Assembly: GCF_002775205.1 (NCBI RefSeq)
Contig: NC_036456.1
Coordinates: forward strand, 23,246,968-23,310,967
Direction: 5' to 3'
Source of the DNA: Xiphophorus maculatus
Lineage: Eukaryota > Chordata > Actinopteri > Cyprinodontiformes > Poeciliidae
DNA length: 64,000 nt
Shown here: positions 26,391 through 62,540 of the stretch, piece by piece
Position numbering within the stretch: position 1 is the first letter of the stretch
Layout of the letters: each line of letters starts with the position of its first letter
Made by a program: the position numbers and the translations under genes
The notes under the pieces: model-generated
Seen by the model: the letters and a program-made list of their open reading frames with translations, nothing else
The model's database searches: none
What the model was told of the DNA's origin: nothing

Positions 26391-33929
<7,539 letters not shown>

Positions 33930-36342: not shown

Positions 36343-39300
36343 TCAGAAGGTCGCCCTCAGGTTGCTCCTGTTCTTTATATCCACCTCCAGTTTAGCGATT
36401 CTCACCTGCAGGATGGAAACAACCAGTCAGAATCATTTCATACAGTTTTTTAAATTATTTTAAAATTTTTTAAAGTGCCTAAACTTTGTGTAGATTGCTG
36501 CTGGACCTATAAAAAAGCTTCTTGTCATTACTCAGATCATCAAAGATCAATTATTAATAAATGATTAATAAATTCATACAATGAGTTTGCCTTCAAATAT
36601 TTTTGACCAAGAAAAATGCACATTTTCTTAACCTGTCAAACAAAATGCAGACAAACGTCCACGTTAAAGTGAAAAGTCATTTTTTTCATCCGTCATTTAT
36701 AAACTATAAAACCATTTTCTGTTTTTGAACCGACCTCTTTCTGATGCAGCTCCTCCTTCAAGCCTCTGATCTCGTCTTGTTGTTTGTAAAATGCCTGCAG
36801 GAGCTGAAGCAGAGAGTCTGTCTGTGAGTTTATTCTGAGAGTTTAAGGAATGTTGTCTTTAATTATGAATCTGTGGTTCTGTTGGACCTCGCTCTCGGTT
36901 GTCGGCGGCGGTTTCTCGGCCGGTTCGCAGCAGTGAGGCGTGCAGCGGTACGACCACAGCGGACTCTCCGTCTCATCCGGCTGCCAGCCCGACAGATCGC
37001 TCAGCTCTCTGGGGTATTTGGCGTCCTGATAGGCCAGCTGCTCCTCCAGGAAAGCCTGAAAACAATAAAACATTTAAACCAAACCAAGTGGAGACGTTTA
37101 CACAACCAGAAAGTAAAGTCATCCCAATTGTTCTTTTATCAATTAATCAGATTTTTGGGTTCTTAAAGGTTACATTTTTTTAAAATTTGGATTTTTCCCT
37201 TTGGTTTCCATAGTTCAGATTGATGTGAGCGCTACCCGGCGGCCATCTTGTTTTCATGATACTCCGTCTTGCATCTCTCAGTGTTTTGTGACTAAACGTA
37301 TCAGCGTACCTTTTCCATAAAGTCCAGGTTTGTGTTTGTCTGGAACCTGACGGCGCTCAGCTGCCTCAACTGGTTTTTATCCGCAGGAATTTCAGCGTAT
37401 GGGTTTTCCACATGAGCCTCCGGCCTCAAGGACATCAGCACCGGGCCTGAAGAGGAGAAGAGAGCCCTGCTGACATAACCCTAACCCTAACCATCTGTAA
37501 CCAGCAGGATGTTTGTGAGGGTTACATACCCCTGTTGATGCCCAGCAGCCACTCCTGAGCCGTTAAAGCTGCCTGGTTTCCAGCCGTCATTGGATACAAA
37601 TCCTCGTGGAAAACCTCAGACTGGAACAGAAAACCTCACCTGATCGGCTGCTATCACCAATAATAACAAAACAACAATGATCGATACCTGTTTTCGTGGT
37701 ATGATCATCGACAGAGGCTCTAGCAGGTCTTTGACGGCAATCAGCCGATAAAAGCGGAAAATCTCACACGCGCTCACGTCCAGGCCGCGTTTCGGCATCA
37801 CACCTGAAATCACAACACAAATATAAAATGTTTCAAAAACAAATTTAATCTGAACTCTTTCCATTGTTGGCTGCCACTCCTTGTTACTTTTCAGAATGTG
37901 TCCACAGTTTGGGCTATCCCTTGAAATGACTTTAAAGCTAACGCTAAACCAAAGTTAGTTAGCATTGAATTGGTTAGCATGAGTCCTGAATATTCACTCA
38001 TTGTTTAGTGTTTCACAATCCATTATGACATTGGTTTTGGTTTGTATCCTGGTTCCTTTTAGCAGATCAAACTCATTTTGGGGATGTTTGTCCCCAACTC
38101 TTACTTCCACTATATTCAGAATCTATCTTTATTATCAGCACTTTCTCAAAGCGAACTTGTTTTCTCCATTTTAAGTGATTTGCTGTTTTGAGTGTGATAA
38201 TCCGACCCAGTCCTTTCTGTGGCAGCAGAGATCTGTACTCCATCAGGAAGCTGATGTAGGGTTTCTCAGAGCTCAGCTCGTAGTATCTGATGTTCCCGTC
38301 CCCCTAAAACACAACAACAACATTCATGCCGAACCTCATTGCTGCTGTCAATAATACTAAAGTATTTAGAGGCAAATACAACAATCAGGAACCAATCAGA
38401 AGTACTTCTGATGACCAATTTAGATCAAAAACCTCGTAAACATCACAGGAATTACATTGAACCAATGATGGGTAAATAATACTTTACTGAACTTGGAAAA
38501 CATTTTAGTGTTCAGACCCAACATGTTACATTAATTATTCTGGATTTAATTAGCATTTTAAAAACCTTTCCAGCCAAGTAGAGCATCTGTGTGTCAGGAT
38601 CGTAGAACGGGAAGAGAACTCCTGCAGATCCGTCCAGATCTTCTTCATACAGAGGCTCTGATAAATCATCCTGCACACAGGAAAGATGTTTTAGGTTTAG
38701 CTGGAAACAACGGAGGGGTTTTAGTACTTAGAACAAAAAGGACCTATTAAGGGATCATTTACTTCCTGTTTTGGACTGAATCTTGCATATGAATTACAAA
38801 CGGGTTCATTTTCTAGTTACAGCCTGACTGGGGATTCATTCGTTTTAATCGAAGGTCATTTTATTTATATATCACATTTTCAGCAACAAGGCAGTTCAGA
38901 GTGTTTTACATGAATTAAAAGGAAATACAAACAAAACAACAAACCAAAGGAAAGAGATAAAGAAACCAGAGTATATAATCTAGATCCTCCTGATCTAGAT
39001 TGCTAGGTAGGTGTAAATACTCCATTCCTGTTCAGAGTTGCTGGATTCTAAGTTTGTTCTGGGTTGTTAAATAAGTAAGTAAGTATTCTCTGGACTTTCT
39101 AAGTATGCTCTAAATTTGTAAAAGTAATGAGTACTCCACAGTTTCTAAGGAACGATAAAAACAAAGTGTTGTTGTTCTGGAAGGTTTTGTTCTGGATTCC
39201 AGTTTGTTTGGGAAGGTCTCAGTCTCGGTTCGGTTGAAGTGAACTCTTTGAATGCATATGAACGCATGAAAAACAGGAAGTGGACTACAGCGCAGGGCAT

Positions 39301-41085
39301 TCTGGGTAAATTCAACCAAAACAAACACGCTAGGCTAGCGCTAGCGGGGGAAATGACTCGTGGTCTTTAACAGAAGACAAGAAAAATCCTCCTCCGCTAA
39401 AATCTGAGCTACTCCATTCTTGTTTACATTTTGCAAAGAGGGAAGTTGCGCTCAGGTTCTTCTTCAGAGGCTTTCAAACTGTTTCCTTCAGTGGTTCTTG
39501 GTGCAGCGCCCCGACAGGCGAGGAGGGAAAAATGTTTTTCAAAAGGTTTGGCTGGTTTGACTCAGTGCGTTGTGAAAGTGAACTCCAGCAGCTGAAAATG
39601 TAAAAAATGTTGCAGTTTTGGTCCCCAGCTGAACCCTAAACTAATTCTAGCTGCTGGTTTTAGAATAAAGTCTTACTGGGTCCCAGAGGAGGATCTGTCT
39701 GTGGTTCCAGGGCGAGCTTCCAGTGGACAGGAGCATCTTCAGCCCTCTGATGTATAAAACCTTGTTAGCCCTGTGCGTCTTGTTGCTGGAAACCTGTAAA
39801 ACCAAATAGTAACATGACTACCAGTCCCACCAATCGATATACAATCCAACAGGAAACACTAAAAAAACAACCTGTAGGATCTTCCCGGTCCGCGGCTCCA
39901 GAACCCGAATCCGCCTGTCTTTAGACGTGACCGCCAGTCTGCTGCCGTCGATGTTGAAGCTGACGGAAAGCAGCAGCGCCTCGGACGGGTAGCGATGGTG
40001 GACGGGCATCAGGACCACTCGGACCGGGTGTCTGATCACAGAACCGGAATGGGACACATCCCAGAGGAGAACCTGGAGAAGGTTTCAACAAAAAGTTTGT
40101 GAACAAACTTAAATTCTGATTTTAATTGTGTTTTTTATTTTATGGAAACAGTGCAGTTGTGAAATATTTTTTTTTCATCTTCAGTGGAATATAAGTGACG
40201 TTTTATTAGGTGTTATTTGTACTTTTATCTGTAGAGAAATGTCACTGACTAAAGAGGCGGCTGACCTTGTAGTCGTAGCCCGAGCTAAGCAGCAGGTTCT
40301 CAGCAGTTGGATGCCACTCAATGATAGCCACCCTCCTGCTGTGACCCGTCAGAGTCTTCCTGGCCTTGGTCAGGTTCTGTTGGACCCCACAAACTGGAAT
40401 ATCCCAAATCTTCACCTGCGTTCAGACGCATAATCATGGTTTTATCCTCTATGATGTAATTTCTAGTAACGTTGACCTGACCTTGATTTTAGGTTGAACC
40501 ATAAAATAAAGTCTGAACCAAAGAGAACCTTTGGAAAAAGAACCTTTGAATGTGAATAAACAGAGTAAAACATGGCTGCTTACAGTGCAGTCTTCAGAGC
40601 ACGAGGCGATGCAATAATCGTTAAATGGATTCCATTTGACGTCCAGGACTCGGCCGCTGTGACCACAAACCCTCGGACAGTGAGGGTCTACTCTCCCCAA
40701 CTGGAAGACATTTTACTTTGCTAAATTAAACTAATTATTTAAACATTTCTAACCAAAAGTTTAGTTTGTTTAGTTTTCTTTGGACAGTAGACAGACAAAA
40801 GGTCTTCAAGACCTTGTCAGTTTAATAAGTAGCAGTAAAATATTGTTGTGTTGGTTGGAAGTAACCCTAGTTTGACCTACATACACAATGAATGGGCAGG
40901 ACTAGGAAGGCCCCGCCCCCGGCGCACTCCGTCACCACGGCGATGAAGCAGGGATTGGCTGAGCAGTAGTGGTTGTCATGGACGCTTCTTGTGATTGGCA
41001 CTCCGTCGTAGCTGTGCTCCTTGGTCGCTGGCTTCCCGAAGACGTAGCGAAACTTTGAGCATCGGAAAGACGAGCGCCACGACAT
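36343..41085 (-). CDS. coro2a: Coronin-2A
   Basis: Coronin-2A is a WD-repeat actin-regulatory protein also reported as a component of NCoR co-repressor complexes. Coding exons in transcription order (plus coordinates): 40885-41085, 40584-40700, 40266-40415, 39872-40072, 39677-39793, 38566-38670, 38207-38303, 37688-37803, 37530-37620, 37310-37446, 36888-37055, 36735-36794, 36343-36405. All join in phase to 540 residues (human 525). It starts [20 protein letters not shown], then [13 protein letters not shown] and [14 protein letters not shown], the coronin N-terminal signature. WD repeats follow ([34 protein letters not shown]), then [21 protein letters not shown] variable linker precedes a C-terminal coiled coil ([20 protein letters not shown]). 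The start Met lies directly after a splice acceptor, so a non-coding 5' exon is expected upstream. Coronin-2A is preferred over 2B because of the neighbouring anp32b. Confidence 0.93.
37476..37492. repeat. Short telomere-like TAACCC run
   Basis: Almost three CCCTAA units in a coro2a intron. Too short to show telomeric origin. Confidence 0.5.
38840..38960 (+). repeat. Interspersed fish repeat fragment in a coro2a intron
   Basis: The TTCAGCAACAAGGCAGTTCA and GTGTTTTACATGAATTAAAA blocks resemble a very common teleost interspersed repeat. A small hairpin of AATCTAGATC / GATCTAGATT follows near 38,978-39,001. Confidence 0.45.
39110..39660 (+). repeat. Dispersed repeat family B, copy 3
   Basis: Full-length-looking copy between coro2a exons, with the CAGGGCATTCTGGGTAAAT block, a GCTAGCGCTAGCG palindrome near 39,338-39,350, the GTGCAGCGCCCCGACAGG core near 39,510 and the CAGCAGCTGAAAATG end. 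Confidence 0.65.
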
Positions 41086-42723
41086 CTGGAGGACAGGAAG
41101 TGACAGAACAGGAAGTGACAAAACAGGAAGTTTAGAGAGTTTCACAACAACTACAGAGCGGACCCTTAAAGGGGCAGTATGATGTGTTTTCCAGGCACAT
41201 AGTGCCATTTTATAGCACAATTTCTCTTTAAGTCTTTAGAAAAATGGAGCTGCGCCTCGAAGGCGGAGCTAAGTCCTCCCAGGCGTTTTGTACAACTAAA
41301 TGGTTGCCATGGAGATGAAAAGATTACTCAGACATGCGTGAAAGAATCCAGTTTTGTTTTTGATGAGGAAATAACATCATAACATGATTTAAAGCTAAAA
41401 AAAATTTTGATTTTACATAATACACTGCAAAAATACTAAATCTTACCAAGTACTTGTCTAGTTTCCAGGGCAAATATTTTGAAATAAGACAAAATTAGGA
41501 TCTTGGTTTAAGGCAATAATTCCTTAATACAGATAATAAAATTTAAAGATTACTTCTACCAGTAACTAGTGTAACTTGTTTCCCGTACTACAAGCAACAT
41601 AAATTCTCTCCCAGTTGGAATTTCTTCTTCTGGAAAGATTGTTTTGAAATTTGAAGTTGGAATTTGGACATTTTAATTTTGGAATAAAAATTAAATTATA
41701 AAGTTGTTTTTCCTGATTTAATGACGGTTTGCAGTTTTTATTTTTCTCACCAGATTCTCTTTGACGTTGTTTCATTATCACAGCCATCCTGTAATTTCCT
41801 CCTATATTATTACTAGAATTATTACTTTATCATTATTTTTCTCTTCATTAGTACTGTTGTTGTTAATTTTATTATGATTAATAATAAAATTAAAGACTTC
41901 TGTATTGTTTTTCCCGTCATTTTATTCTCATTCTTCCTTCCTGTACCATATAAAAAACCTCCCAGGTTCTTATTTGTTCTTATTATTTTCTACATCTTCC
42001 TTAGTTTACTCGTTTTACCTGCAGTTTATGAAAATAAAACGTTGTTTTTTAATCTCATTTTCCTCCCATTTTGATCCTCAGTAAAATCCCAGAACCTTGC
42101 CCTGCCAAACTCAGCAGCGTCATTATCGGTCCTGATCAATAATGCATCCAGCCGCAGTTATAGGTTCTCATAATTGTATAAATAATAAATCAGCTTCTTT
42201 CACGCTTCATGGTTTTAATCGCACCATCAGTTCACCACGTAAATTGAAAACCTTTTGTACAAAACGTTTTTAAATATTTATGCTACATCCCGTCTTTTTG
42301 CTGAGACCAGCGTCTGCTGACCTTTGACTTTTGCTGCTAAAGATCAGCTGGCTGGGCAGAGAAAATGTAATAACTGGTAAAAATGTTTATAAAACAGGAA
42401 AAAAGACAATAATGACACAAAGTTATTTAAAGTTACAAACTTTCTCTGACATTAAAGATGAATAAAGTCTCACCTTGAGTTGGTTGAAGGTTCCTGCTCC
42501 TCTTCCTCCAAACAAACATGAGTTTAAGTTGGTGAAACGTTTTATTGTGGATCTAAATATAGACCAACCTGACCTCTTAATGGAGGCTCCACTCTTCTTC
42601 TTCTTCTTTTCCTTCTTCTTCTTCTGATCCATGACGCCTGGCCTCTGCTTCCTCATTAGCCGAGCCGTTTATGCTCGGCTGCTCGGCGACAAACACCAGG
42701 CTACAATCTGATACGACTACAGC

Positions 42724-42725
<2 letters not shown>

Positions 42726-42815
<90 letters not shown>
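42726..42815. repeat. (CA)n microsatellite
   Basis: About 45 uninterrupted CA units upstream of coro2a. Confidence 0.95.
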
Positions 42816-42817
<2 letters not shown>

Positions 42818-43148
42818 GACCTTAATGACGCCTGTCAGGGTGAACCTGTGGGAGACCAACACATTTCTGTGAAATAATTTAAATTTTCGGTGAATCTGAT
42901 CTGATTTCGTTATAAAACAATTTATTCTTTACCGTCCTTCATTGGAGACATTTTAGTTTTTCACAGGTTTTCTCGTTATGCTGAACTTTGATTAGGACAT
43001 TAAAGTACCTTGACAAAACAAAACGTTGTGTTGTGTTTTTTAAAATTCAATCTATATGCATATTTTTAAAAAAATAAAAAGTCATCAGTTGCACATCCTG
43101 AACAATGTTTCTGGTCCAATAACTGCACAGAATTGTTTTTGTACAGTA

Positions 43149-43149
<1 letters not shown>

Positions 43150-43179
<30 letters not shown>
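43150..43179. repeat. (ATT)n microsatellite
   Basis: About ten ATT units. Confidence 0.9.
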
Positions 43180-45284
43180 GTTAATCTGGTTTTGTTTTTG
43201 AACACATTTTCTAACACTTTTACAACTTGTTTGTCAACTTATTAGGGCTGAAAGATTAGTAAAATCATTCGTGTTAAATCGATTATTGAGATAATTCTCA
43301 ACTAATTTAATTATCGATTAATCGTTTTAGAATCACCTGGTTCATATTCTGTAATTCTTTTTACAAAACTTCCTATTATTCACCTTTTGGTACATAATTA
43401 TTAATCAGTTAATCGCATGTTGATGTTAAAAGTATTTTTTAGCTGCAGATTCATCCTTTGCTACAAATAATCAAACATTCACTAAATTAATGTTCTTGTT
43501 TATTCTCCTATTTAAAAATGTAATTTAATTATTTATTTGTATTTTTTATGTACTTCTAATATTGTGTAAAATTATCTTAATTTGTTGAATGAATTAATTG
43601 ATTAATAGTCAGAATAAGCAATAGATTAATCAATAATATTAGTTTCTCCTTTAGATCAGGACTCAAAACATTATTTATTATTTTTATGAATAGATGTTAA
43701 AGATTTCTTTCTGAGTTCATTTTTATTTGCTTTATATTGGAATTATCATCTTTATATTTTGATTTTATGTGATTCTTACATCTTGTTTTGATGTAGTTCA
43801 TGAGTTTTATCTCTTTCTTTGTTATTTCTGTTAAAGTTGCATTTGAAACAATGAGATATTAAGAGGTTTTGATTTAAATAAAAACAGTTTGGGTTTTTTC
43901 TCGGCGGATTCTTCAGAACATTCTGACGTTCTTATGAAGTCACAGCGGCGCTGACAGCAGTTCTGGTTCTGGTTCTGGTTCTGCAGCTTCTGCAGCTCTT
44001 GGCTTCAGTTTGTTGGGAGATTTTGCTGCTTTCATGTTAAATCTACTAAAATCAGGTAGGAAAACTGGAAACAATCCTGCAAAGGGTTAGGGTGGAGTTA
44101 GGGTGGAGTTAGGGTGGAGTTAAACCTGCAAAACAATCAGAGTTTTCACACAGAAAAGTCTGAGTTTAATGTGGAAAATGACAGAAAAATTCATGAGTTT
44201 TATTTTTGACTAAATGAAGAAGAAACATATTCACCTGTTTGTGGTTTGAAATAGTCATCAAAGTAAATAAATGTGATTTTTTTCTGCTGCAGTTAGATTT
44301 AAAAGTAAAGGCAGTCGTTTTCAAGTCGTCACTTTTCTTTAAAGTGTTATTTTTAGTTAATTTCTGCCTCTAAAGAAAGGAAAATCAAATTTAAATTTCA
44401 TTTAATGGTTTATTTTTGGGGGATTTTTGCTGTAAAATTGCATTCAAATTTTTGGTTCAGTTTTCAAACCAGTTTCGGGTTCATGCTTTAACTTGTTTGT
44501 TAGTTAATAATATTTTATTATTCCACCATCCAGATTGACTAAAATAAAATAAAAAAACTATAAAGTTGCTTTCAAAATATCTGTAGGCTGAAGGAGATGA
44601 AAATAGTTTGAAATAAACTGAATTTAAATGTACAGAATCATCATGAGGCCATTTTTGGTTAATTAACCACGGCTGACCTTATGTTTCTGTTTTTGAGGTC
44701 TTGTCTTTGCATCTTATAAATAATAAACATGTTTATGATTTATGGATTAGGTTAACAGTACAACCAGAGGAGCTCTGTGTGTGATGTCATTTAGCTCCAA
44801 GTTACATCCAAAACACCTGAGTTAGTGCCGATAATTAGGCTTTTAATTGGCATCATCCTAATGTTTACATCACTAGTTATTCTAATAACAGATTAGAACA
44901 ACTTTAAATCCTCAGTAAGAATTTATTTTGCAAAACAGTTTGCATTTGACTTATAGATTTATTCAATTATAGAAGTGGCTCGACTATCGACAAATTAACA
45001 CAGGATGTAGATGGAATTTTAAAACAGTCATTTGATTATTAGTTACAAATAAGAAATATGAAATTACAATGAAGTCATTTTTTTTGTTTTTGTTAAAAAG
45101 AGATGAATAGAAATTAAAATGTGGTTTTTCTTCCTTTTAATGTTGAAAATGACTCCACTTCCAAAACAAAAAGTAATAATAAATAATTTTTCATTTTTAA
45201 TATTTTAAACGTGAAAACAACTTTTAACCAAATTTAATTTTCTAATTAAGACAAATGAGAGTAGAAAGTGGAGCATTGTGGCTC

Positions 45285-45660
45285 AAGGGCCATTAACCGG
45301 AAGTGGACTATAGCGCAGGGCATTCTGGGTAAATGCAACCAAAACAAACGCGAGATGGCGCTTGGAAATGACTTGTAGCCTTTCACCAAAGACAAAAGTG
45401 AAATCCTTTTTGTTTTTCAAAAGTGGATCCTACAACCACGAAAATCTGTCGCTCTTCCATTTTTGTTTACATTTAATAAAGAGGAAAGTTCCGCTCAGTT
45501 TCTTCTTCACAGGTTTCGTGTCATTTTCTTCTGTGGTTTTTGGTGCAGCGCCCCCCGAGGCGAGGAGGGAAACAGTTTTTTCAATTAGTTTGGTTGGTTG
45601 GTTTTACACATCAGCTGAAAATGTAACAAATGTAGAGGTTTTATTCTGTAATTAAACCGA
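45285..45660 (+). repeat. Dispersed repeat family B, copy 4
   Basis: Contains CAGGGCATTCTGGGTAAATG, then the GGTGCAGCGCCCCCCGAGGC core and a shortened TCAGCTGAAAATG end. It is followed within 20 bp by a family D element. Confidence 0.65.
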
Positions 45661-45678
45661 GTCAGCTGTGAAAATACA

Positions 45679-46038
45679 CACTGCAAAAAAACACAAGTGT
45701 TATTTTTCTAGTTTCTACAGCAAATTTGAAATAAGACAAAACTAACTTACAATTAACATTTTAACAAGATATAGGAACTTTTTGTAAGTCAATAATTCCT
45801 TAATATTGATGAAAACATTCAGGCATATTAATGTTTTCCCACATTACTTCATTTATAACATGGTAAAATGTGAGGTTATAAGAAGTAGTAAATTTGATCA
45901 ATATTGAAGAATTATTGACTGAAAACAATCTCCTATATCTTGCTAAAAAGTTTTTAAAGTTTGTTTCAAGTGTACTAAGATATTTGCAATAGAAACTAGA
46001 CTGAAAATACTTAAGATTTGTGTTGTTTTTTTTCAGTG
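45679..46038. mobile_element. Family D palindromic MITE, complete copy
   Basis: Begins CACTGCAAAAAAACACAAG and ends with the reverse complement type GTGTTGTTTTTTTTCAGTG. Inner arms carry TCTAGTTTCTACAGCAAAT and its inverse. Partial copies lie at 41,423-41,580 and 49,938-50,051. Confidence 0.7.
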
Positions 46039-46084
46039 TTCACACCTGAAAGCCGAGTGGCATAAATACTCGAGAAACTAGAGG

Positions 46085-46135
46085 GATTCATGACTTACCT
46101 CTTTATGCTGATGATATAATTGTGTATTTTTGTGT
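46085..46135 (+). mobile_element. Possible LINE reverse-transcriptase remnant
   Basis: One frame reads LPLYADDIIVYF, which fits the YADD catalytic motif of LINE reverse transcriptases. No longer RT similarity could be followed, so this is a small decayed fragment at best. Confidence 0.35.
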
Positions 46136-46517
46136 GGTAAAAACATTATATGCTGATTTATTTCAACATAATCTACCAGGTTCTCTCTTTTAGTTTGTCT
46201 ACCTCAATGCAACCAAACTCTCAAACCCCTTTGCCAAAATCCTCCCAGCTGACACAAGCGTTGATGTGCATCCGTTTAATGGTGAGGAAACTCCACATCA
46301 CATCAGCTCAAAACCGTTTGTTTGAATTTTGCTGTTTTAGAGTATTTGTTTCTTCACATGCAGGATGCAAGCCAAACCTCCAATGTCCATTTTGGAAAGA
46401 GCTGTGACTCTTTAGAAATCACACAGCGGTAGGAAGCACACAAACCCCAACAGGTTTATCTCAAGCAGCTGAAATCCACTGAAACCAAGACGTAATTTTC
46501 TCCAACGTGTCGCCCAG

Positions 46518-46881
46518 GACGTTTCCAGAAAACTCCCTGATCGTCCGTGAAGCGCTGAGAATGGACCTGCCTCGGCACCTCGTCCTCAGGAGAGTCCAGA
46601 AAAGGCTTCAAACCATCGGGTCAAACTACACCGACCTGAAAGATTTGGTCGCGGACCTGTTCGAACAAGATGGCCTCCCGTCGTCGCTGGACCAGGAGAT
46701 CCCCATGGAGACCAACCAGCTGGAGGAGGCCATGATGATGAACAGCCCCGTGGTGAAGGACGCCCTCAGGCGCGGCATGCCCCCTCACCTCATCAAACCG
46801 CTCCTACGGGCCAAAATATTAAGATGTGGCGTCCCCTACTCTGACGTCCGTGAACTGCTCGCAGATATGCAAAAAAATTAG
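46518..46881 (+). CDS. Terminal exon with tandem IAP-type UBA domains (3' end of unidentified gene or relic)
   Basis: UBA domains bind ubiquitin; XIAP and cIAPs carry one between their BIR and RING domains. This exon encodes 120 residues and a stop. The first half (ENSLIVREALRMDLPRHLVL through IGSNYTDLKDLVADL) resembles the XIAP UBA. The second (EEAMMMNSPVVKDALRRGMP through YSDVRELLADM) resembles the cIAP UBA, where the family has EDAVMMNTPVVKSALEMGF. The reading frame is intact and GC-richer than its surroundings. A splice acceptor (GTCGCCCAG) precedes 46,518 and the exon would start in the third base of a codon; the first in-frame ATG is at 46,561. A poly(A) signal follows at 46,902. No BIR, CARD or RING coding sequence was seen within several kilobases. 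It may be the last exon of an unannotated IAP-like gene, a short single-exon gene, or a relic. Confidence 0.55.
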
Positions 46882-46901
46882 ATTAAAACAACCAATTTAT
46901 C

Positions 46902-46907
46902 AATAAA
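46902..46907 (+). terminator. Poly(A) signal of the UBA exon
   Basis: AATAAA 20 bp after the stop codon, with a TGTGTTGTTGGTGTCC stretch downstream, the normal layout of a cleavage site. Confidence 0.6.
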
Positions 46908-47029
46908 AGTGCTCACACTTTTACTGTGTTGTTGGTGTCCAGGTGATACAGCTGATTAACATTTTGGAAATAATGTACTTTCAGTGGTATTTGGAGGAAA
47001 TCTGAGCCTACTTTATTTTTGTTTCCATC

Positions 47030-47120
47030 TTGAGACTGTATCAAACGAACCAAACCCTTTGAGCAACCAGTTCCCCTCCTCACCTGTGGTGGCGCTGCTG
47101 AAGGAGACAACATGAAAACC
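47030..47120 (-). repeat. Dispersed repeat family B, short copy 5
   Basis: Reverse-orientation core with AACCAGTTCCCCTCCTCACC and TGGTGGCGCTGCTGAAGG. It faces copy 6 in inverted orientation about 110 bp away. Confidence 0.55.
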
Positions 47121-47224
47121 TCCACATACAACTGAAACAAATGCGCTAGTTTAGCTCTAATGGAGAAAAGTCTTCTGGTCGGTTATCAGAAACAAAAGAG
47201 AAATCATACAACACTAAAATCTAT

Positions 47225-47400
47225 TTCTGTTTACATTTCATGAAGATAGACGTTGCACTCAGTGTCCTACTGTTGTTTATCAATAGTTCTTGGTGCAGCG
47301 CCACCACAGGTGAGGAGGGGAATAAGTTTTTCAAAGGGTTTAGTTTGTTTGACTCGCAGCAGCTGAAAATTCAACAAAAGTTGCATTTTGTTACATGCAG
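47225..47400 (+). repeat. Dispersed repeat family B, copy 6
   Basis: Core GGTGCAGCGCCACCACAGG, AGGAGGGGAATAAG, TTTTTCAAAGG and GCAGCAGCTGAAAAT. Confidence 0.6.
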
Positions 47401-47464
47401 TCTGACCGTCTACCAGATTATTGTTCAATGCTTCAACTATAAGCCGAGATTCACCAGCTGCTCC

Positions 47465-47575
47465 GGGCTCTGAGTAATTTATTTTACATTTACTTGAGTA
47501 AAAATACGTTGAAGAAAAGATCCTCTTACTTAAGTACAATATTTGGCTATACTCTAAATAAATAGGTTTCTGACA
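47465..47575 (-). repeat. Dispersed repeat family C fragment
   Basis: Carries ACATTTACTTGAGTAAAAAT and CTTACTTAAGTACAAT blocks, as in the sh3gl2 intron copies. Confidence 0.45.
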
Positions 47576-48479
47576 GAAAGTGGAAAATCTTCCAATAAAA
47601 TGTTACAATTATGAAATTGTAATTAATGTTTGGTTTAGTTTCAACTTGAATTATTTTTGAAATTGTTAAAGATCTAATCAGTTCAATGGTATCCTAATAT
47701 GTAACACTGTGTAATTAGACAAGATTATACACATTTTTAAAAAAGATAAAACATCTAATCTTTTCACAAATAATCAGCCTGGCAGGTCAAACTTTGTCAT
47801 GCAGAAACATTTTGTCAAATCATCACCAAGTCACGTCTCCTGAACAGCATCAGATTATCTGTGGGTTTAATCTGAAAACTGTCATGTTGTGTTTTGCTCA
47901 CATTGTCAGTAAAATCTGCTAATCTGTCGCTCGTCATCCGAACACAAGATTCAGTTGATTTTGGAGGCTAAAACATTTCAGAGCGTCTCTAACGTCTCCA
48001 GTCTGGACTGGGACCAAATAATGGCTCCAGTATTTTTATCCACCTTGATTATTCATATAACATGTGAAGGTAAGCGACGTACCAGAGAATATCTCTGCAG
48101 TTGTGTTGCTTCAGAAGTTAACATAAAGCCCAGCAGCCTATAAGGAAGAAAATAATCATGTTGAAAATTGATACGACTTTGACTTTTTGAAAATATTACA
48201 TGATAGCAACAGCTGCAAACTGTAACTTCATCGCTAAACGACACAGAGTCTACTTTTATTTTATTATATGAAAACAAGATGCTATAAAAACTATTCTTAC
48301 ACATTTGTTCACAAAACTAGTTTTTTGCAGTTGAACTTGTGGTGACAAACATATCAGTGCCTTTAAGATGCTGATTATCTTTTTTCTCACAGTTTTTCTG
48401 CTCTTCTCTTCCTGTGTTATTGTAGTTTGTTCATTTCCACTCACTTCTGAACTACAGGGAACAAACTACCAATTATATT

Positions 48480-48850
48480 GTAACATAAAATAAACGTAAC
48501 AGTTTTGGGTGAAAGTTAAGAGTTAATTTGCCTTTAGAGATCAGATTGTTATCAGCTAATGACAGATCAGTGAAAGTCAGAATACTCTGATATCTTCATG
48601 TATTGTAAATATATCTGAACAGCAAATACTGCACATAATTCCCAGTTAGTGATCCATGTACCTGATGGCGCCTGCAGAGGAAGAAAACGTCTGATAAAAC
48701 GTATACAGTCAACGTAAAGCAACAATCCATCAGGAATTTATCAAGTTCACTGAACCTGCAGCTTCACCTGCTGTTTGAAATAGTTTTATATTGTTTTGGC
48801 TGCAGTTGGACCAGAGATGTTATCTCATGAGAAAGTGATCAGATTGTCTC
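48480..48850 (+). repeat. Diverged duplicate of the transglutaminase 5' region
   Basis: TAGTTTTATATTGTTTTGGC and TTGGACCAGAGATGTTATCT at 48,781-48,825 match TAGTTTTATATTTTTCTAGC and TTGGACCAGAGATGTTATCT at 50,310-50,361. The AAGTTCACTGAACC-like and AGATCA-rich upstream blocks are in the same order. Similarity fades before the position of the start codon. Confidence 0.65.
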
Positions 48851-49084
48851 TAAAGACGCAGGAGACGTAGACATGACAGGTTATAAGTTTAAAGATAAAA
48901 ATAAAATAGATTTTTACATATGTGAAGCTTATGGTGAGAGAAAAGTATGAAATAAGCATCAGAATGAGCCATTTTAGGGCCTCTGTCACTTTAAATCCAA
49001 CTGAGCTGCTGCTGGCGACGCCCCCGACTCCGTGTTTACAGTCGCAGGTGAAAATGGCTGCAAACAGATGAACAGTTGTACAGA

Positions 49085-49195
49085 GAACAGAAACACGGAC
49101 AACCAAAACAAAATGTTCAAAACACCGACAGCTAAAACAAAATGTTCAAAACACCGACAGCTAAAATAAAATGTTCAAAACACCGACAGCTAAAA
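49085..49195. repeat. 29-bp tandem repeat
   Basis: Three almost identical units containing AAAATGTTCAAAACACCGAC and AGCTAAAA, with a partial fourth. Confidence 0.85.
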
Positions 49196-49269
49196 CAAAA
49201 ATCATAATTCAAACACCAAACTCACAACCAAACCTCAAATCAAGCAGTAAAATAACAGATTTATTCAGT

Positions 49270-49600
49270 TAATTTGTTTTTATAATGTCAATCCACAGCA
49301 ATGTTGTCAAGGCATTTTACAGAAAGTCGTTTAGTTCAGTCACAGGTTCCAGTTGATCCTAGTTATCAATAAATCAGTTTATTATTGAAGCAGTTTAAAA
49401 TGTTTCATTACAGAATCCACTCCTGCGACGGCAAATCGTTGACTTTACAGCAATCCCTCATAACGAGCCTGCATGTAGCGACTGTGGAGAGGAAGAGCTC
49501 CCCTGTAACAGGAAGAAACCTGCAGCAGAACCAGAACCGGGTTTAGAACCAGCAGCCACGAGAGGACATGGAGCAGAGACACAACAGGTCAGCTGACCCA
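49270..49600 (+). mobile_element. Common teleost interspersed repeat, decayed
   Basis: Blocks such as CAAGGCATTTTACAGAAAGT, CCAGTTGATCCTAGTTATCA, CTGTGGAGAGGAAGAGCTCC and AACAGGAAGAAACCTGCAGC in this order recall a very frequent fish interspersed element. I recognise the pattern but cannot give a family name from the sequence alone. Confidence 0.55.
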
Positions 49601-49937
49601 GGAGAACTTTCTATGCTCATGGAAGTGAAAAGCTTCAGAGGGAGAACGGTTAGGTGATGGCAGCATCATGCCAGCCAAGGCCCAAACCCACAGCAGGCCG
49701 CTGATGGACGACCTCAGTGACCCCTACCACCAGCCTCTGCAGGAAACCCTGGAAATGTTCCTGGGTGACGCTTCCTGACCCAAACCTCCATTTGGACTTG
49801 AAACTTTCTCAGCAGTCCTCCTTAAAAATACTGCAGGTATCTTTCTGTGATATTTCACTCTGAGTTTTTGAAACGTGATGATTTCACTCTGAGTTTTTAA
49901 AGGATTTGACCTGAAACCCGTCCTGCTATTAAAACAT

Positions 49938-50051
49938 TTATTTACTGAAAATAATGTTGCTGAAAACTTACTTCTACTTACTTCAAGTGTACGAAGATAT
50001 TTGCTCTGGAAGCTACACAAAAATACTTGGTAAGATTTTGTTTTTGCAGTG
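49938..50051. repeat. Family D MITE, right half
   Basis: Carries CTTCAAGTGTACGAAGATAT and ACTTGGTAAGATTTTGTTTT, ending TTGCAGTG, as in the terminal arm of the complete copy at 45,679-46,038. Confidence 0.6.
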
Positions 50052-50313
50052 CAGCTTTGCATTTTATTGTTACGTGAAATAAAGGTAAATCAGACCGAAG
50101 AGATCAAATTACTATCAACAGAACTTTGTCTGTTGTCATGAAAATATTTCAGAACCTGTCAGGTAAATTCTGCAGGTAATCCTCAATGGTTGCTCCACCT
50201 GCTGGTTCCTCCATCTGATTAAACCTGAATAGCAGCAGCTACGGTCTAGCAGCACATTTATCAGGTTCACTGAACTATGACCTGCAGCAGTTTTACCACA
50301 TGTTTCAAATAGT

Positions 50314-50320
50314 TTTATAT
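50314..50320 (+). promoter_or_regulatory. Candidate TATA-like element of the transglutaminase gene
   Basis: TTTATAT lies about 135 bp upstream of the start codon. It is one of the best-kept blocks in the diverged upstream duplicate (48,784-48,790), together with the GGACCAGAGATGTTATCT segment about 30 bp downstream, where transcription could begin. Confidence 0.35.
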
Positions 50321-50454
50321 TTTTCTAGCTGCGATGAGCTGTTGGACCAGAGATGTTATCTAATGGAGGAAGTGATAAGAGCGCCTTTAAAGCTCAGACG
50401 GCTGCAGAACGTCTTCACTCTTCGCTTTCAGAGCCTGAAGAACCAACTGACAAG

Positions 50455-53400
50455 ATGTGCAGCGTTGCTAACGGTGAGAAATGTTCATTTTATTATTCTT
50501 AAAGTAAAACTTGGTAGCTTCTTTTACTCTGTTGTGGTTTAACTCTTAAATATTTCAGATTTTAGTCAATTATTTACGTTGAATACAAAATTACGGAAGC
50601 CGAATAATGTCAAAATGGTCTTAAATAAAAGCAAGTGAAACATTTAAACAAAAATAACTAACTTTCTTAAATTAACCTTTTTAAAAATATATATTTTTGT
50701 TTTCAGATCTATTCAAACTTTTTATTTCTCAACATACATTTTAAATGCAGGTTACTTTCCTGTCCCAGTTTAAAACTATTATTTAAAATAAATCTTTCTA
50801 CTGTGCAGACTGTAAGATAAGTAAGTTTCTCCCTGACATAAAAACAGATTTTTTTTTCTGCTGTTTTAACAAATTAAAAGTGTGTACGTCCTTTAATTCA
50901 TCATTGAACTTTAATTTGGAGTGTTTTTTCTTGTGTTAAATCTATTAATCTATATAATGAGCTTCACTTAATGAATAGATGGGATTTTTAAAATCATATT
51001 CTGATTTATTGAATGGGTCAGTTTTTCTTTTGAATATCACTACATCTCTTCCTTTTGTCAATATAAAAGGATTTATTTTAATCTCAGATTTGAAACTGAA
51101 GGCGCGACTCTGTTTGCTTTCAACAAGATAAACCTGCTTTTCTACGGAAGACAATTAGGGCCAAAATTAATTCTTACATTAATCTCAGAATTTATCCAGA
51201 ATTTATATTATTCATCCATCAAGCACACTTTATCTGAATTAATTATAAAATCACCGGAGTTATTGTCCAGTCGTCCTTTTTTGTTTGCATCTGTTTAGTT
51301 TTGGTGCTGAAGTTTCATATTAAACATAAAACCACTAATTTATCCTTTCTGTTGTGTTTCTCCAGCAGTCAAGAGAGTGGACCTCCACTGCCACGCCAAC
51401 AATGTTGCCCATAATACCCATGAAATCTCTACCAGCCGACTAATTGTGAGACGGGGGCAGCCTTTCAGCATCACACTGGAGCTGGACTTCGCTTTCAGCA
51501 CATCGGACTCAGTCAAGCTCACGGTGGAAACAGGTGCCACACTTTTCACCTGGCCTTGAATCTGTTTCTGAAAAACATCCTAAAGGTGGAGAACTTGAAG
51601 GACTAGTTAACAGCATTTGCATCATCATTTCTGTCCTTCCTTATTGGCCCTTTGCATGTGACGTCACGCTATCCGGAACTCCGACCACTCCGCCATGACG
51701 GACGTCAAAACAGCCAATGCGTTGCTATACAGTAAAGCTAGTCTAAAAACAGACACCTTTAACCTAATATATCGCTTCTATTTAGTTGATTTTGCTTTAA
51801 AAATGGTCATAGGAAGCTGTGCGATCAGCTGCACAAACAGACAAGGATGTAAACCAAACTTGTCATTTTATTTTATAACTTTTAATAAGGAAAGAAGCGA
51901 GATGGATAACAGCTGTCAAGCTAACGACTTTCAGTTCTCTGTGTAACCGCGGATTTACAGCGAACACGGTTTATAAGATAAGATTAATATTCATATCCTT
52001 TAGAAGTAAGTATGATTAGAAAAATATCAAATATCACATTACTAGAAGGTACGCGTCTAACCGTTGGTAACCATGGAAACACTAAAGCACCATCATGTAG
52101 CCTAGGATGTATAAAAAAAAACTGGTTTTCAGTGCTGCTCCGGTGTGAAGGAAACGCTGCTTATGACATATTAATATAAATCATGTGGTGTGAATTCAGG
52201 TAAAGTCGATAATTTGATCAACACGTCGAGAGGAAGGACATACGAGTCGGTTTCTAAGTTAACTATTTCCAACTTTTGTTAATACCGCCGTCTATAAGCC
52301 ACAACCAGGTCAGTTTCCTTCACAGACAAATCGACTCCGACAAGTAAAAGCCATTAATAAACTGGAAAAAACAACTTTGGAAAATAATTGTGACGTAGCT
52401 GCAAAGGGTCAATACAAATCAGGAATGTAATGAAGTAGAAATGAATGTCTCTTGTGTACTGAAATGATTCTCTCCAAAGGTCGTTTTCCATCACCAAGCA
52501 GAGGGACCAAGTGTACTTTTGGTACCAGAGTACTGATGTGTGGTGTGGGCACTAAAGCTCCCTGGACCTGCAGCATCGACGCCAAGTCCGCCCTGAAGTC
52601 GGGCTGTGTGACCCTTTCTGTGACCCCTCCAGCTGACGCTCCAGTGGGGAAATACTCTCTGTCCATAGAGCTGGGGAGGCCGTCGGCCGTGAAGGAAAGC
52701 CTGGTGGTGCTTTTCAACCCCTGGTGTCAGAGTGAGTACTGACCCAAGAGAAACTTTCCAAACAAACCCGCCAAAGACGGAGAGATGGGAGGAAACTGCC
52801 CGACAACATTCCCCAACGGAAAAAACCTTGAAGACCATGTTGGTTGATTCATTGACCAGATCTTTGTCTTGGTCTGCAGATGACTGGGTCCACCTGCCTG
52901 ACGAAAAGGAACGTAAAGAATATGTGATGAATGAACAGGGACACATCTACAGAGGGACGGCCTGCGACTTCAGTCCAATGTTCTGGGACTTTGGACAGGT
53001 GAGGTTTTACAAGAATCCATCCATCATGTTTATTGTACATTCAGTAGTAAGCAACAAACACATTTATTGGCCGTAGCCATATTTGCGAGTGGAGTTCCTC
53101 AAAGGTCTACCCTGGAGTCCATCTTGATTTAGGTACAGTTACAAAATCCATGTTTACCAAATTTCTGTATTTTTTTCACTACTTTTTTCTCTCTCTCTAT
53201 TTTTTCATTTATAAAATGAATTAAATCATTGCAAAGATTGCAATGATCTTGCAATCTCATTGCAATCTTTGTTGAACTGCTTGGAAAGCACCAAAGCTTG
53301 GTTGTTTTGGTTTATGTGGACGAGTTGAGTCAGATACATTAACGATAAACGTCTAAGATGCCAAAGCAGTGACTATCCAGCAATCTGGATTTTGATCTTT

Positions 53401-56400
53401 GGCCAACAACATGTTGGTGCTCATACATCCAGCATTCTGTTTCTTGCAGTTTGAGGAAGAAATGGTGGATATTTGCCTCAAATTGTTGGATGTCAACCCA
53501 AAACACAAGAGAGACCCTGAAGATGATGTTTCAGCTCGCTGCAACCCCATCTATGTTGGCCGGGTCATCAGTGCCATGGTGAGGAGAAACTTTCTCACAA
53601 GGTTTGACTTAATTTAATATGGATTAACATTTCTCCATCTGACAGATCAACTGCAATGATGACATGGGTGTTTTAGAAGGATGTTGGGATGGCGACTACC
53701 AGGATGGCGTTTGTCCAACCAGATGGACCAGCAGCGTCAGCATCCTGCAGCGCTGGTTTCAGAGCGGCTGCAAGGCGGTGAAGTACGGACAGTGCTGGGT
53801 GTTTGCTGGCGTGATGTGCACAGGTGACGGATCTTTATTTCATTTTCTACTCGTGTTGCCGTTGCGTGAAGCCAATTTAAATGCCTTCTGTTGTTCTGAT
53901 TGCAGTGATGCGGTTCTTCGGCATACCGTGCCGCGTTGTGACAAATTTTGTGTCTGGTCATGACACAAACAACAGCCTCACGATTGACGAGTATTTTGAT
54001 GAGTACGGATTAAAACAAATGGGAAATGCAGACAGTATCTGGTAAGACCAATACTCAACGTTGGATACCAAGCTTCCAAACGAACAATAAACTCAATTTT
54101 TAAACAATTATGACACAGTCCTTAGTTCCCATGCTCCTTTTTGTCAAACTACTGTTGGAAATCTTAGTCTTGCTTTTGTTTGAAATTGGACAATCAAGCG
54201 AGTTCAGCTGTGAAATCAAGTTTCTTTCATTTGTGTCTTTTAGCAAAGGTAAAGGTGCTTTTACCCCTTTTTACCATTTTAAAATGCTTCTTAAAACCCA
54301 TTTCCATTTGACATTTAGTTTTAGTCCTCTTATGGGACAAAATTATCAATATACCAGAGTTTTGGAGTTTTAGTCTTGAAGGAACAAATCCTATAAATCA
54401 GATCTACTCCAATAAATCACCATTAATCCTTATTAATTGTTAGGAGCTTTGACATTTCTTAATGCCATGCAGGAACTTCCATGTGTGGGTGGAGGGTTGG
54501 ATGAAGCGCCCAGACCTGGACCAAGATGGCCACTACGACGGCTGGCAGGTTTTGGATCCAACTCCTCAGGAAAGGAGTGAAGGTAAACGGTTTTTGTTCT
54601 TGCCCTCTAATGATGTTCGCTTTTCTGAAGGTTGCTAAAGTTGGATCTGTTTGCCTCAGGCATGTTCTGCTGCGGTCCAGCTCCGGTGAGCGCCATCCAC
54701 GACGGCCACACCAACCTGAAATATGACATACCGTTTGTCTTCAGCGAGGTCAATGCTGACATCGTCAAGTGGAAGGTCAGAACGACTTCCTAATGTTTTA
54801 ATATAAAGCCCAAAATCAATCAAGGTCAGAACTTATGGAGCTGAATTGGGGCCATAAAGTTTGATCAAAAGAAAATAAAAATTCCACTGATATTTGTGAG
54901 GTGTGTGTTTGTGGGTATTTTTTTCAGTTTTAAATCTTTTTCAGTTTCAGAAGGCCTTTTTTTTCGGTTTCAATATTTTTTTTTTGTTTCACTTTTTTAA
55001 CAACTTTATGGCTCCAACTTAGTTCCATACATTTCTCACTTCCTCAGAGTTTTAAGTTTCAAATGTCTTTTTTTTTCCATTTAAAATTACCGTAGGTTCT
55101 TTTGTTTAAAAATGTTAGTTTTTTCAGTTTCAAATCTTACATTTTTTAGTTTAAAATTTTTTTTTCAATTTCAAATCTTTAATTTTTTAGTTTAAAAACA
55201 TTTTTTTTCAGTTTCAAATCTCTTACTGGACCATCAGTAACATTTCGGATGTGTTTGATCTCAGATTAAAGCCGACGGCTCAAAGATAAAAATGAAATAC
55301 CTCACTGACACGGCGAAGGTGGGCCAGAAAATCTCCACCAAGGCTGTTGGCAGCACAGCAATCAATGATCTGACAGACACCTACAAATATAAAGAAGGTA
55401 ACGATGCTAACGCTAACTCCTCTCAAGCGCTGGGGCGGATTTGATCAGTTTTAGTTATTTCATTTACTGATATTTGTTAGACTAAGCTAAACATGCACTA
55501 CCTAAATCATCCGGAGTCATTATGAGATTATTTCTCTGCCCTGGTAAGTGACTTGGAGCCAGTATGAAAGTTTGTTGATTAGAAAACATGTTTGAAAAAT
55601 TATCTGTAAAGTTCTCGAGTCAAAATCACTTCAGTGGATCCCCACCTATTCACGGATGTTAGCTTAACAGTTATTAGCTTCTGCGGTATGTTGATGGTAA
55701 TGTTGGTCCCAAACTGACACAAAAACTGTTTGTTCAGCTGAAAACAATTCAAAAGTTTATCCTCACCAGGCTGCATAATGGAGAGAGTCGTGTTTGACGA
55801 TGCTGTCAGACGGCTGAACGCACCGGGCCACGATGTTGGGCACGGCACCTGTAAAGTCCTCGTGGTAAGAGAGGTGGAACTGTCATTGGAGGTAAGTTTG
55901 ACTTGAAACACTTTTGTGTGAAAGTATATCAGAGTGAAACGATCAGATATATTTTGCCATATCGACAGAAAACCTGTTTAAGGAATTCACATGACATCAA
56001 ACTGAACCTGAAGCTGAGCAACAGAGGTCGCGGTGTGAAATCGATGTCCATCTTTGTGAATGCCCAAGTCACAAACTACACTGCAACCAAAGTGACGAAC
56101 GTCCTGCATGATTCCTATGTCCAAAAACTGATGGCTGGACAAGGTCTGTCCACGAATCGCCCAACTGATGGATATGATCTGACCTATTTCAATCAGTTTC
56201 ACCCAATTACTCTGAAAACTAACAGGAAATCTCATGTAGCATTTATAATTTTACACAAAAACATTTCTAGCCTTCTGGAACAATCATCAGTGCCAATAAC
56301 TGACATGTGTAGAAGAAGCATTATAACCTAAATGTCTACCTTTTGCCTTTCATGTAGCTGTGAATATTCCCATCCTGATCCCATACTCGGCCTACTGTAA

Positions 56401-57665
56401 ATACGCCGTTACCCACGACAGCATGAAGGTGTCGGTCGACGCCACAGACGAAAACGGTGACATCTATGCGACCGACACTGACATCACCCTGGAAGATCCG
56501 CCCATCTCCGTTAAGGTGGGCAAATTCCCTATCAGGAAAAAAAGTAGAGACAAAATAACACTTAGGTCAGGGGTGTCCAAAGTGGAGCCCGGGGGCCATT
56601 TGTGGCCCTCGAACTGATTCTTGTGTGGGCCCAAAAGTCCATCCATCCATCCATCTTCTTCCGCTTATCCGAGGTCGGGTCGCGGGGGTAGCAGCTTCAG
56701 AAGGGAGGCCCAGACTTCCCTCTCCCCAGCCACTTCTTCTAGCTCCTCCGGGGGAATCCCGAGGCGTTCCCAGGCCAGCCGAGAGACATAGTCCCTCCAG
56801 CGTGTCCTGGGTCTTCCCCGGGGCCTCCTCCCGGTGGGACGTGCCCGGAACACCTCACCAGGGAGGCGTCCAGGAGGCATCCTGACCAGATGCCCGAGCC
56901 ACCTCAACTGGCTCCTCTCGATGTGAAGGAGCAGCGGCTCTACTCTGAGTCCCTCCCGGATGACTGAGCTTCTCACCCTATCTCTAAGGGAGAGCCCAGC
57001 CACCCTACGGAGAAAACCCATTTCGGCCGCTTGTATCCGCGATCTCGTTCTTTCGGTCATGACCCAAAGCTCATGACCATAGATGAGGGTGGGAACGTAG
57101 ATCGACCGGTAAATCGAGAGCTTCGGCCCAAAAGTGCATTTTAAAAATGATACAAATCAAGCAGACCAGGACGCGGGCCCTTGAGGACTGACTTTTCAGC
57201 CCCTGCTTTAAATGAAAGTGTACTGTACTGATCTGTAGTATGAATATACTGCAGTAAATCATAATTATGAAATAATAGTAATGAAACGGCATGTGACGTT
57301 TGCTCCAGGTTCTGGGTGAAGCTCGTCTGCACCACCCGGTGACGGTTCAGGTGGAGTTTAAGAACCCGCTGAATGAGACGCTGAGGTTCTGCTCTTTGAC
57401 CATCAACGGCTCCGGACTCTTCAGATCCGAGCTCTTTGAGAGGTAAACCAATTACTCCGGAGCTCATTTTATGTTTATGAAACGTTCTAACAGGATTTCT
57501 CTGTGTGCCTCCTGTAGCATCGGAGACCTGCCAGCCAACACGACTCTGACGCACCAAATCCAAACCACCCCCTACAGAGCTGGACTGAAGACGGTGGTGG
57601 CCGACTTTGACTGCAGCACCTTCAGAGACGTGAAGGACAGCTGCACCGTCTACATCAAGCCTTGA
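50455..57665 (+). CDS. Protein-glutamine gamma-glutamyltransferase (transglutaminase), TGM2-like
   Basis: This enzyme forms Ca2+-dependent isopeptide bonds between glutamine and lysine side chains. Exons: 50455-50473, 51366-51533, 52480-52731, 52880-52998, 53450-53578, 53646-53823, 53906-54041, 54473-54582, 54660-54775, 55265-55397, 55770-55891, 55969-56143, 56358-56515, 57309-57442, 57518-57665. All are GT-AG and in phase, encoding 698 residues (TGM2: 687). The tiny first exon (MCSVAN plus one base) has the phase-1 end typical of TGM2. The N-terminal beta-sandwich ([16 protein letters not shown]), catalytic core and two beta-barrels are complete. The triad is Cys279 (YGQCWVF), His337 (WNFHVWVE) and Asp362 ([11 protein letters not shown]); the transition-state Trp243 is present. 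The residues that contact GTP in TGM2 are not kept (see findings). No signal peptide is seen, as in the family. The exact paralogue (tgm2-, tgm5- or tgm8-like) is not resolved. Confidence 0.93.
51646..52410 (+). mobile_element. Decayed DNA transposon with THAP-like start, in transglutaminase intron 2
   Basis: Imperfect terminal inverted repeats lie at 51,646-51,667 (GGCCCTTTGCATGTGACGTC AC) and 52,390-52,410 (complement of GACCCTTTGCAGCTACGTCA C). The left end contains a full TGACGTCA CRE palindrome. At about 51,801-51,946 the plus strand encodes [16 protein letters not shown] and then [16 protein letters not shown], like the first half of a THAP zinc finger, followed by a stop. No transposase core is visible. 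Confidence 0.5.
56568..57205. mobile_element. hAT-like non-autonomous element in transglutaminase intron 13
   Basis: Begins CAGGGGTGTCCAAAGTGGAG and ends with the inverted type ACTTTTCAGCCCCTG. Both are variants of the widespread fish CAGGGGTGTCAAACTCCAGT terminus. It is split by the LINE fragment at 56,639-57,124. Confidence 0.6.
56639..57124 (-). mobile_element. 5'-truncated non-LTR retrotransposon (LINE ORF2 C-terminus)
   Basis: The minus strand is open from about 57,120 to 56,665. It encodes the ORF2 end common to a fish LINE, with [53 protein letters not shown] and [17 protein letters not shown]. The 3' end carries GGAT repeats (56,639-56,652). An 11-bp target-site duplication, GGCCCAAAAGT, flanks it at 56,628-56,638 and 57,125-57,135. 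The clade is not assigned. Confidence 0.85.
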
Positions 57666-58739: not shown

Positions 58740-58888
58740 ATTTTGAAATGTTTCGTCTATGCAGCTGCTGAGGCGGTGCTGAAGAGAAGCAGACAAGTTC
58801 TCCACATTTTCCGTTAATTTGGACAAACAAGAACCTGCTGAGGATCCGGTACCGCTCGGTTCACGGCCCAGTTCTTATCTTCTATCAG
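58740..58888 (+). other. Candidate non-coding first exon of the TRIM gene
   Basis: A GC-richer stretch ends in TTCTATCAG followed by a GTAAAA donor at 58,889. The coding exon downstream is preceded by a good acceptor at 60,604 (GTTTTTCCACAG), so the intron would be 58,889-60,604. The exon start is a guess based on composition and the CRE-like site just upstream. Confidence 0.45.
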
Positions 58889-60604: not shown

Positions 60605-60622
60605 ATCTGAAGGTTACAGAAG

Positions 60623-62347: not shown

Positions 62348-62495
62348 TATTCTGGTGTTGCTTTGTGGGTATTCTCTTTTTGGTTCATTTTAGGTGGGAT
62401 CACCAGTTGTACTAGTAGTGCTGAAAACTTTGTGTTCAGTCTTTTTAGAAGATTCATAACCAACCTCATGTAAAGTTTAACACTGAAGGTTAAGC

Positions 62496-62501
62496 AATAA
62501 A
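62496..62501 (+). terminator. TRIM gene poly(A) signal
   Basis: AATAAA 148 bp after the stop, with CTGTGTCTTCATTT downstream. Confidence 0.65.
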
Positions 62502-62540
62502 GCTTATTCACTTGAACACTGTGTCTTCATTTAAACCAGA

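Follow-up and report, generated by a model that had tools for sequence, protein, structure and literature searches.

A candidate double-UBA gene of IAP ancestry without BIR, CARD or RING in Xiphophorus maculatus

Organization of the locus

The window analyzed here is a stretch of 64,000 nt of Xiphophorus maculatus DNA (C14:23246968-23310967), and the genome searched comprised 704 Mb in 101 contigs. The features that concern an exon with two IAP-type UBA domains are given below by their position in the window.

Predicted start codon at 41085, minus strand: coronin, the upstream neighbour of the UBA exon
45295-45352 and 45530-45605: pieces of a dispersed repeat between coronin and the UBA exon
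45678-46039: terminal-inverted-repeat element with 16-nt arms (94% complementary), just 5' of predicted exon 1
46194-46281, plus strand: predicted exon 1 of 88 nt, with an ATG in frame at 46207 and phase 0 at its end; from the splice chain test
46364-46428, plus strand: predicted exon 2 of 65 nt, with phase 0 at its start and the first two bases of a split codon at its end; from the splice chain test
46518-46881, plus strand: terminal coding exon with two IAP-type UBA domains (120 codons and a stop)
46537-46665, plus strand: UBA1, PF21290 at 33.2 bits, ubiquitin motif MDL/LF
46729-46869, plus strand: UBA2, PF21290 at 37.7 bits, ubiquitin motif RGM/MQ
46902-46907, plus strand: poly(A) signal AATAAA, read directly
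About 51.4k to about 57.4k, plus strand: transglutaminase
60611-62347: open single-exon TRIM frame of 578 codons with RING, B-box, coiled coil, PRY and SPRY

The minus-strand coronin is presumably CORO2-like. The space left between the terminal-inverted-repeat element and the UBA exon is about 46040-46517, and a TATA-like CATAAATA was spotted by eye at 46061-46068, 5' of predicted exon 1. At 47041-47352 there is a fold-back element whose 58-nt arms are 88% complementary; one of its arms belongs to a repeat that is also found at 39488-39563 and 45530-45605. The transglutaminase region harbors a 163-codon frame on the minus strand (56665-57156), which presumably resembles the C-terminus of a LINE-type reverse transcriptase protein of fish.

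Coding signal of the terminal exon

The terminal exon opens after an AG in phase 2, and its codons run from 46519 to a TAG stop at 46879-46881. A GT-rich stretch lies behind the AATAAA, near 46926-46941. An earlier sequence-only reading of the window had described a 120-codon frame after a splice acceptor, with stop and poly(A) signal; all of these were read directly and lie where it had placed them. Its description of the frame as GC-richer and coding-like within AT-rich DNA also held. The exon has a G+C content of 56% and a GC3 of 0.725, against a G+C content of 0.296 in 43000-46000. Its codon score is +86 bits in frame versus -18 and +20 bits in the other two frames. The codon table behind these scores comprised 1,066 codons, taken from the TRIM frame and from nine exon pieces of neighbouring genes in the window. 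Upstream, no stop interrupts the frame as far as 46483, and the chance of a given 132-codon frame staying open was 0.86% in 20,000 draws from a first-order Markov model of local composition. When neutral substitutions were simulated, with indels not counted, the share of runs that left the 120 codons open was 62, 37, 24, 13 and 4% for identities of 90, 80, 70, 60 and 40%, respectively. The open frame of 120 codons alone is modest evidence for coding.

Identity of the two UBA domains

Analysis of the 120 residues with Pfam gave a single family above cut-off, UBA_BIRC2-3 (PF21290), which matched twice (E 1.6e-18). When the exon was cut in two, each half passed the PF21290 cut-off of 27.2 bits (33.2 for UBA1, 37.7 for UBA2), which confirms the proposal of two IAP-type UBAs. 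A match to the Pfam family Nucleolin_bd (E 0.15) and the only NCBIfam match (E 0.15, with 11 bits where the cut-off is 650) were taken as chance. Two sequences of the Protein Data Bank matched the exon, namely the XIAP-UBA (2kna) and cIAP1 (3t6p). The best stretch of cIAP1 (26.9 bits, E 4.5e-5) covers residues 67-115 of the exon, which correspond to UBA2. The best single stretch of the XIAP-UBA (20.4 bits, E 0.0045) covers residues 8-55; two overlapping stretches total 34.8 bits.

In gapless alignments UBA2 is identical to birc2 of X. maculatus at 21 of 50 positions, to a second UBA-bearing IAP of the same genome (the C1 IAP, described below) at 16 of 50 and to XIAP at 13 of 43. Judged from this comparison and the 3t6p match, UBA2 is cIAP-like, as had been claimed for the second half of the exon. 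The corresponding claim that the first half is XIAP-like stood in part: UBA1 does align with 2kna, but the label is weakly supported, mainly via GSNY and LVADL, with identities of 16/44 to XIAP versus 17/51 to birc2 (13/51 to the C1 IAP). UBA1 and UBA2 share 15 of 50 positions. In a tree of six short sequences with 200 bootstraps, UBA1 grouped with UBA2 in 110 and with XIAP in 80 replicates, and all three grouped in 136; no ancestry of the two domains stands out from these values.

A structure model of the exon from the single sequence had low confidence (pLDDT 46.5). It placed helices at residues 7-14, 19-33 and 40-50 and at 77-84, 89-102 and 110-119, in a UBA-pair-like arrangement, with an extra helix at 65-75. 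With UBA2 supplied as a second row, the model of UBA1 reached a pLDDT of 65.1 and had a UBA-like helix spacing. Foldseek gave 28 matches at E <=10, none of them at E <=0.001.

IAP partner domains in the window and the genome

The window was also analyzed for the domains that accompany UBAs in IAPs. Pfam detected no BIR, CARD or IAP RING in the plus-strand frames of 38001-46602 and 46883-64000 or in the minus-strand frames of 34001-44000. A strict BIR motif had no match on either strand of the whole window, and a looser one had four, including the TRIM RING. Likewise, tblastn of the window with BIR1-3 and the RING of the genome's own xiap, BIR1 of its birc2 and part of the birc2 CARD found no such domain; the TRIM RING (E 0.006) alone fell below E 0.04. 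Two candidate relics, an xiap BIR3 piece at 33589-33624 (E 0.042) and a birc2 BIR1 piece at 45572-45697 (E 0.067) that overlaps the dispersed repeat, were rejected as noise. The only RING found downstream of the UBA exon belongs to the TRIM gene near 60.7k, and stop and AATAAA come right after UBA2. The absence of BIR and RING noted in the sequence-only reading was thus borne out for the frames scanned by Pfam, and for the whole window by motif scan and tblastn. IAP family membership calls for at least one BIR and, in those IAPs that carry a UBA, a C-terminal RING; neither was found for the double-UBA gene, which is not an IAP by definition.

Genome-wide, at least 13 BIR matches at E <=0.01 were found among 28 scored candidates, on C1, C10, C11, C22 and C23 and none on C14. 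For the UBA family PF21290, six scored candidates gave at least four matches at E <=10, located on C11, on C1 and, twice, in the window. The exon protein matched itself and the birc2 UBA (42%) in its own genome, and nothing else at E <=0.001. The gene on C11 is birc2, with BIRs, UBA, CARD and RING. At C1:19120500-19130400 lies the C1 IAP, which has two BIRs (by reading), a UBA and a RING but no CARD match; BIRC3 and BIRC2 give the top scores for its RING.

An xiap gene with three BIRs and a RING that best matches XIAP was located at C23:23850500-23860400. Its BIR2 piece matches XIAP BIR2 and linker (residues 1-91), with four NAIP chains scoring higher via two stretches each. No UBA was detected between BIR3 and RING of this gene by Pfam (three forward frames), by tblastn with the two UBAs of the window or in the genome-wide family search. 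The possibility that the double-UBA gene is a whole-genome-duplication sister of xiap was considered but not supported: the nearest relative of the coronin is on C5 (71%) and xiap is on C23, a comparison of one gene only.

Predicted upstream exons

The terminal exon had been regarded as an orphan, which is probably wrong because two short upstream exons were found that join it in phase. By eye, each of the two (46194-46281 and 46364-46428) has an AG before it and a GT after it, and the three exons joined give one open frame, with predicted introns of 82 and 89 nt and 167 predicted residues from the ATG at 46207. Splice sites were scored by an approximate consensus and ranked against 285 local GTs and 258 local AGs. 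On this scale exon 1 has its donor at the 99.6th and its acceptor at the 96.1st percentile, and exon 2 at the 96.8th and 99.2nd, respectively. The donor of exon 2 scores 1.56 bits; the acceptor at 46518 is weak (-0.05 bits, 81.8th percentile of the 258 local AGs).

The chain was compared with control acceptors. These were all AGs with a score not below that of 46518 on either strand of seven window stretches that are mostly non-coding, with plus-strand 46100-46700 removed. To count, a chain had to be in phase and open; exon lengths were limited to about 30-200 nt and intron lengths to about 60-200 nt, and no site could score below 0 bits. The two-exon chain into 46518 scores 15.6 bits, and this score was reached by none of 690 control acceptors in any of the three phases. 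Two caveats apply to this count: control sites that lie close together lack independence, and the chain was seen by eye before being tested. Any two-exon chain at all was found for 27, 9 and 24 of the 690 in phases 0, 1 and 2. Among the controls with at least 38% G+C upstream (n=287), the respective numbers were 17, 7 and 14, none of them at 15.6 bits. A first chain test on 250/326 sites had given four with any chain and none as good.

Codon scores of both upstream exons fall in the noncoding range, with -7.4 bits for exon 1 (+6.8 in another frame) and +2.5 bits for exon 2. When both sites were required to score at least 2 bits, exon 2 was lost, and the sole partner in 44.0-46.5k was 43987-44055. 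Upstream of 46194, no initial exon with a donor of at least 2 bits was found in 41.5-46.1k, and 43987-44055 was the one internal candidate. An apparent homology of exons 1 and 2 to the XIAP linker, seen by eye, was not borne out by sequence search: addition of the two exons changed the best XIAP stretch from 20.4 to 20.9 bits, and the aligned residues all lie in the UBA exon. Within the predicted 167-residue protein, the 120 residues of the last exon are well supported, and the use of the upstream exons, transcription and translation are presumed.

Ubiquitin-contact residues and hydrophobic core

A study on the XIAP-UBA names M382, G383, F384, L414 and V415 as ubiquitin contacts, each of which lowered binding when changed to alanine, and describes the MGF..LV motif as invariant across the IAP family in a mammalian alignment (PMC3240630). 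At these five positions birc2 has MGF/LL, the C1 IAP MGF/VL, UBA1 MDL/LF and UBA2 RGM/MQ. Thus neither UBA1 nor UBA2 carries the MGF..LV motif, and the C1 IAP also departs from it in the second part (VL). Two of the five XIAP residues are kept in UBA1 and one in UBA2. MGF is kept in the only other UBAs of the PF21290 family found in the genome, those of birc2 and the C1 IAP. The residue pattern of both domains speaks against strong ubiquitin binding.

Apart from the five contacts, 12 comparable columns are hydrophobic in birc2, the C1 IAP and XIAP alike, and these served to assess the hydrophobic core. In each of UBA1 and UBA2, 11 of the 12 columns are still hydrophobic, with P values of 0.013 and 0.031 under a simple model that assumes a 36% chance for a random replacement to be hydrophobic; the N-terminal columns of UBA1 are not reliably aligned, and its gapless alignment may be off by one residue.

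Proposed gene and alternative explanations

We propose a compact, probably three-exon fish gene that encodes a linker and two IAP-family UBAs and acts as a pseudo-UBA adaptor or competitor, a proposal with about even chances of being right. That the double-UBA gene is IAP-derived and coding and lacks BIR, CARD and RING is probable on the sequence data. Its arrangement appears to be new, in that a known domain family occurs doubled and without these three partners. In the suggested adaptor or competitor role, the protein would bind ubiquitin in the classical manner little or not at all. Its UBA folds would attach to IAPs or to IAP partners, through heterotypic UBA contacts or a different surface, and docking would modulate IAP signalling without ligase activity. 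The XIAP-UBA associates with itself through a surface separate from the ubiquitin contacts and weakly, at about 900 uM (PMC3240630). Heterotypic docking as the contact with IAPs or partners is a guess, because XIAP-UBA dimerization is weak and the N-terminal columns of UBA1 are not reliably aligned.

Alternatively, the exon might be the tail of an IAP-like gene after loss of its BIR and RING exons, and thus a pseudogene or a recently inactivated gene. The lack of BIR and IAP RING nearby, the eroded ubiquitin motif, the terminal-inverted-repeat element at 45678-46039 and the dispersed repeat within 45295-45605 just upstream, and upstream exons without coding bias are consistent with such a relic. 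However, the 132-codon frame is open with a strong coding bias and high GC3 in DNA of 30% G+C, the core columns are hydrophobic at 11/12 twice, the splice chain is in phase and matched by 0/690 controls, and the exon ends in a clean stop and AATAAA. A relic has a minor but real chance of being the right explanation. The earlier notion that the exon is the tail of an IAP-like gene with unrecognized upstream exons fared worse. IAP UBAs normally come after BIRs, and an ordinary IAP gene with BIR exons far upstream or missed would follow this order; the genome search scored the best candidates only (28). Against such a gene end stand the location of all 13 BIR matches found, which are on chromosomes other than C14, and the upstream neighbour, a coronin on the other strand. 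We regard it as highly improbable.

The sequence-only reading had also suggested a ubiquitin-binding decoy, in which the pair of UBAs would hold polyubiquitin chains and thus keep IAPs and other readers away from them. The presence of two IAP-type UBAs and the lack of a ligase domain would suit this function. Tandem UBAs could raise avidity. UBA1 has M382 and L414 unchanged, and where F384 and V415 are replaced, by L and F, the new residues are hydrophobic too. UBA1 has, however, a D at G383, and UBA2 an R at M382 and a Q at V415, positions at which alanine lowered XIAP-UBA binding (PMC3240630), whereas the other two PF21290-family UBAs found in the genome keep MGF. The decoy is weakened by the retention of only two and one of the five contacts, and we consider it unlikely. 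It is less likely than a pseudo-UBA adaptor because the MGF/LV contacts are changed while the core is hydrophobic in both UBAs. A fold that is kept and a ubiquitin face that is changed, twice, fit a pseudo-UBA better than a polyubiquitin decoy.

Comparison with known IAPs and significance

The UBA of XIAP (BIRC4; 2kna) has GSNY and LVADL in common with UBA1, which aligns over residues 8-55. The double-UBA protein differs from XIAP in the lack of BIR and RING, and UBA1 harbors D and L instead of G383 and F384. Among the cIAPs (BIRC2/BIRC3), the UBA of X. maculatus birc2 shares the MMN-[ST]-P-V start with UBA2; birc2 differs by its BIRs (three by reading of exon pieces), CARD, RING, phase-1 UBA exon and MGF/LL. 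The C1 IAP likewise has one UBA of the PF21290 family, but differs by BIRs, RING and the kept MGF. Oyster IAPs with novel domain architectures, in which the presence of RING and UBA varies, are a precedent for IAP domain reshuffling; that study dropped proteins without BIR, so that a BIR-less gene would have gone uncounted there (PMC8917759). Among the matches listed for the openly licensed literature, none named a BIR-less UBA-only IAP gene or a fish xiap without UBA.

In cell-death and immune signalling, IAPs couple the reading of ubiquitin to its writing. In its broadest form, the proposal is that a vertebrate gene kept only the UBA part of an IAP, doubled, as a non-ubiquitin-binding regulator, and that xiap of the same genome lost its UBA; this is speculative and rather improbable. 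If true, the XIAP-side UBA and the caspase-inhibiting and ligase parts would now reside in two separate genes. The role of IAP UBAs apart from the ligase is not settled; cIAP1 UBA-mutant mice in a cIAP2-null background developed normally but were sensitive to TNF (PMC5823975). A stand-alone double IAP-UBA protein with changed ubiquitin contacts would offer a natural tool for studying UBA roles beyond ubiquitin binding.

Other observations in the window

With respect to viral contigs, three stretches fitted a pattern and none was confirmed. A tandem repeat of about 10 units of 28 nt, the central stretches of which are up to 99% alike, is located at 27876-28155.
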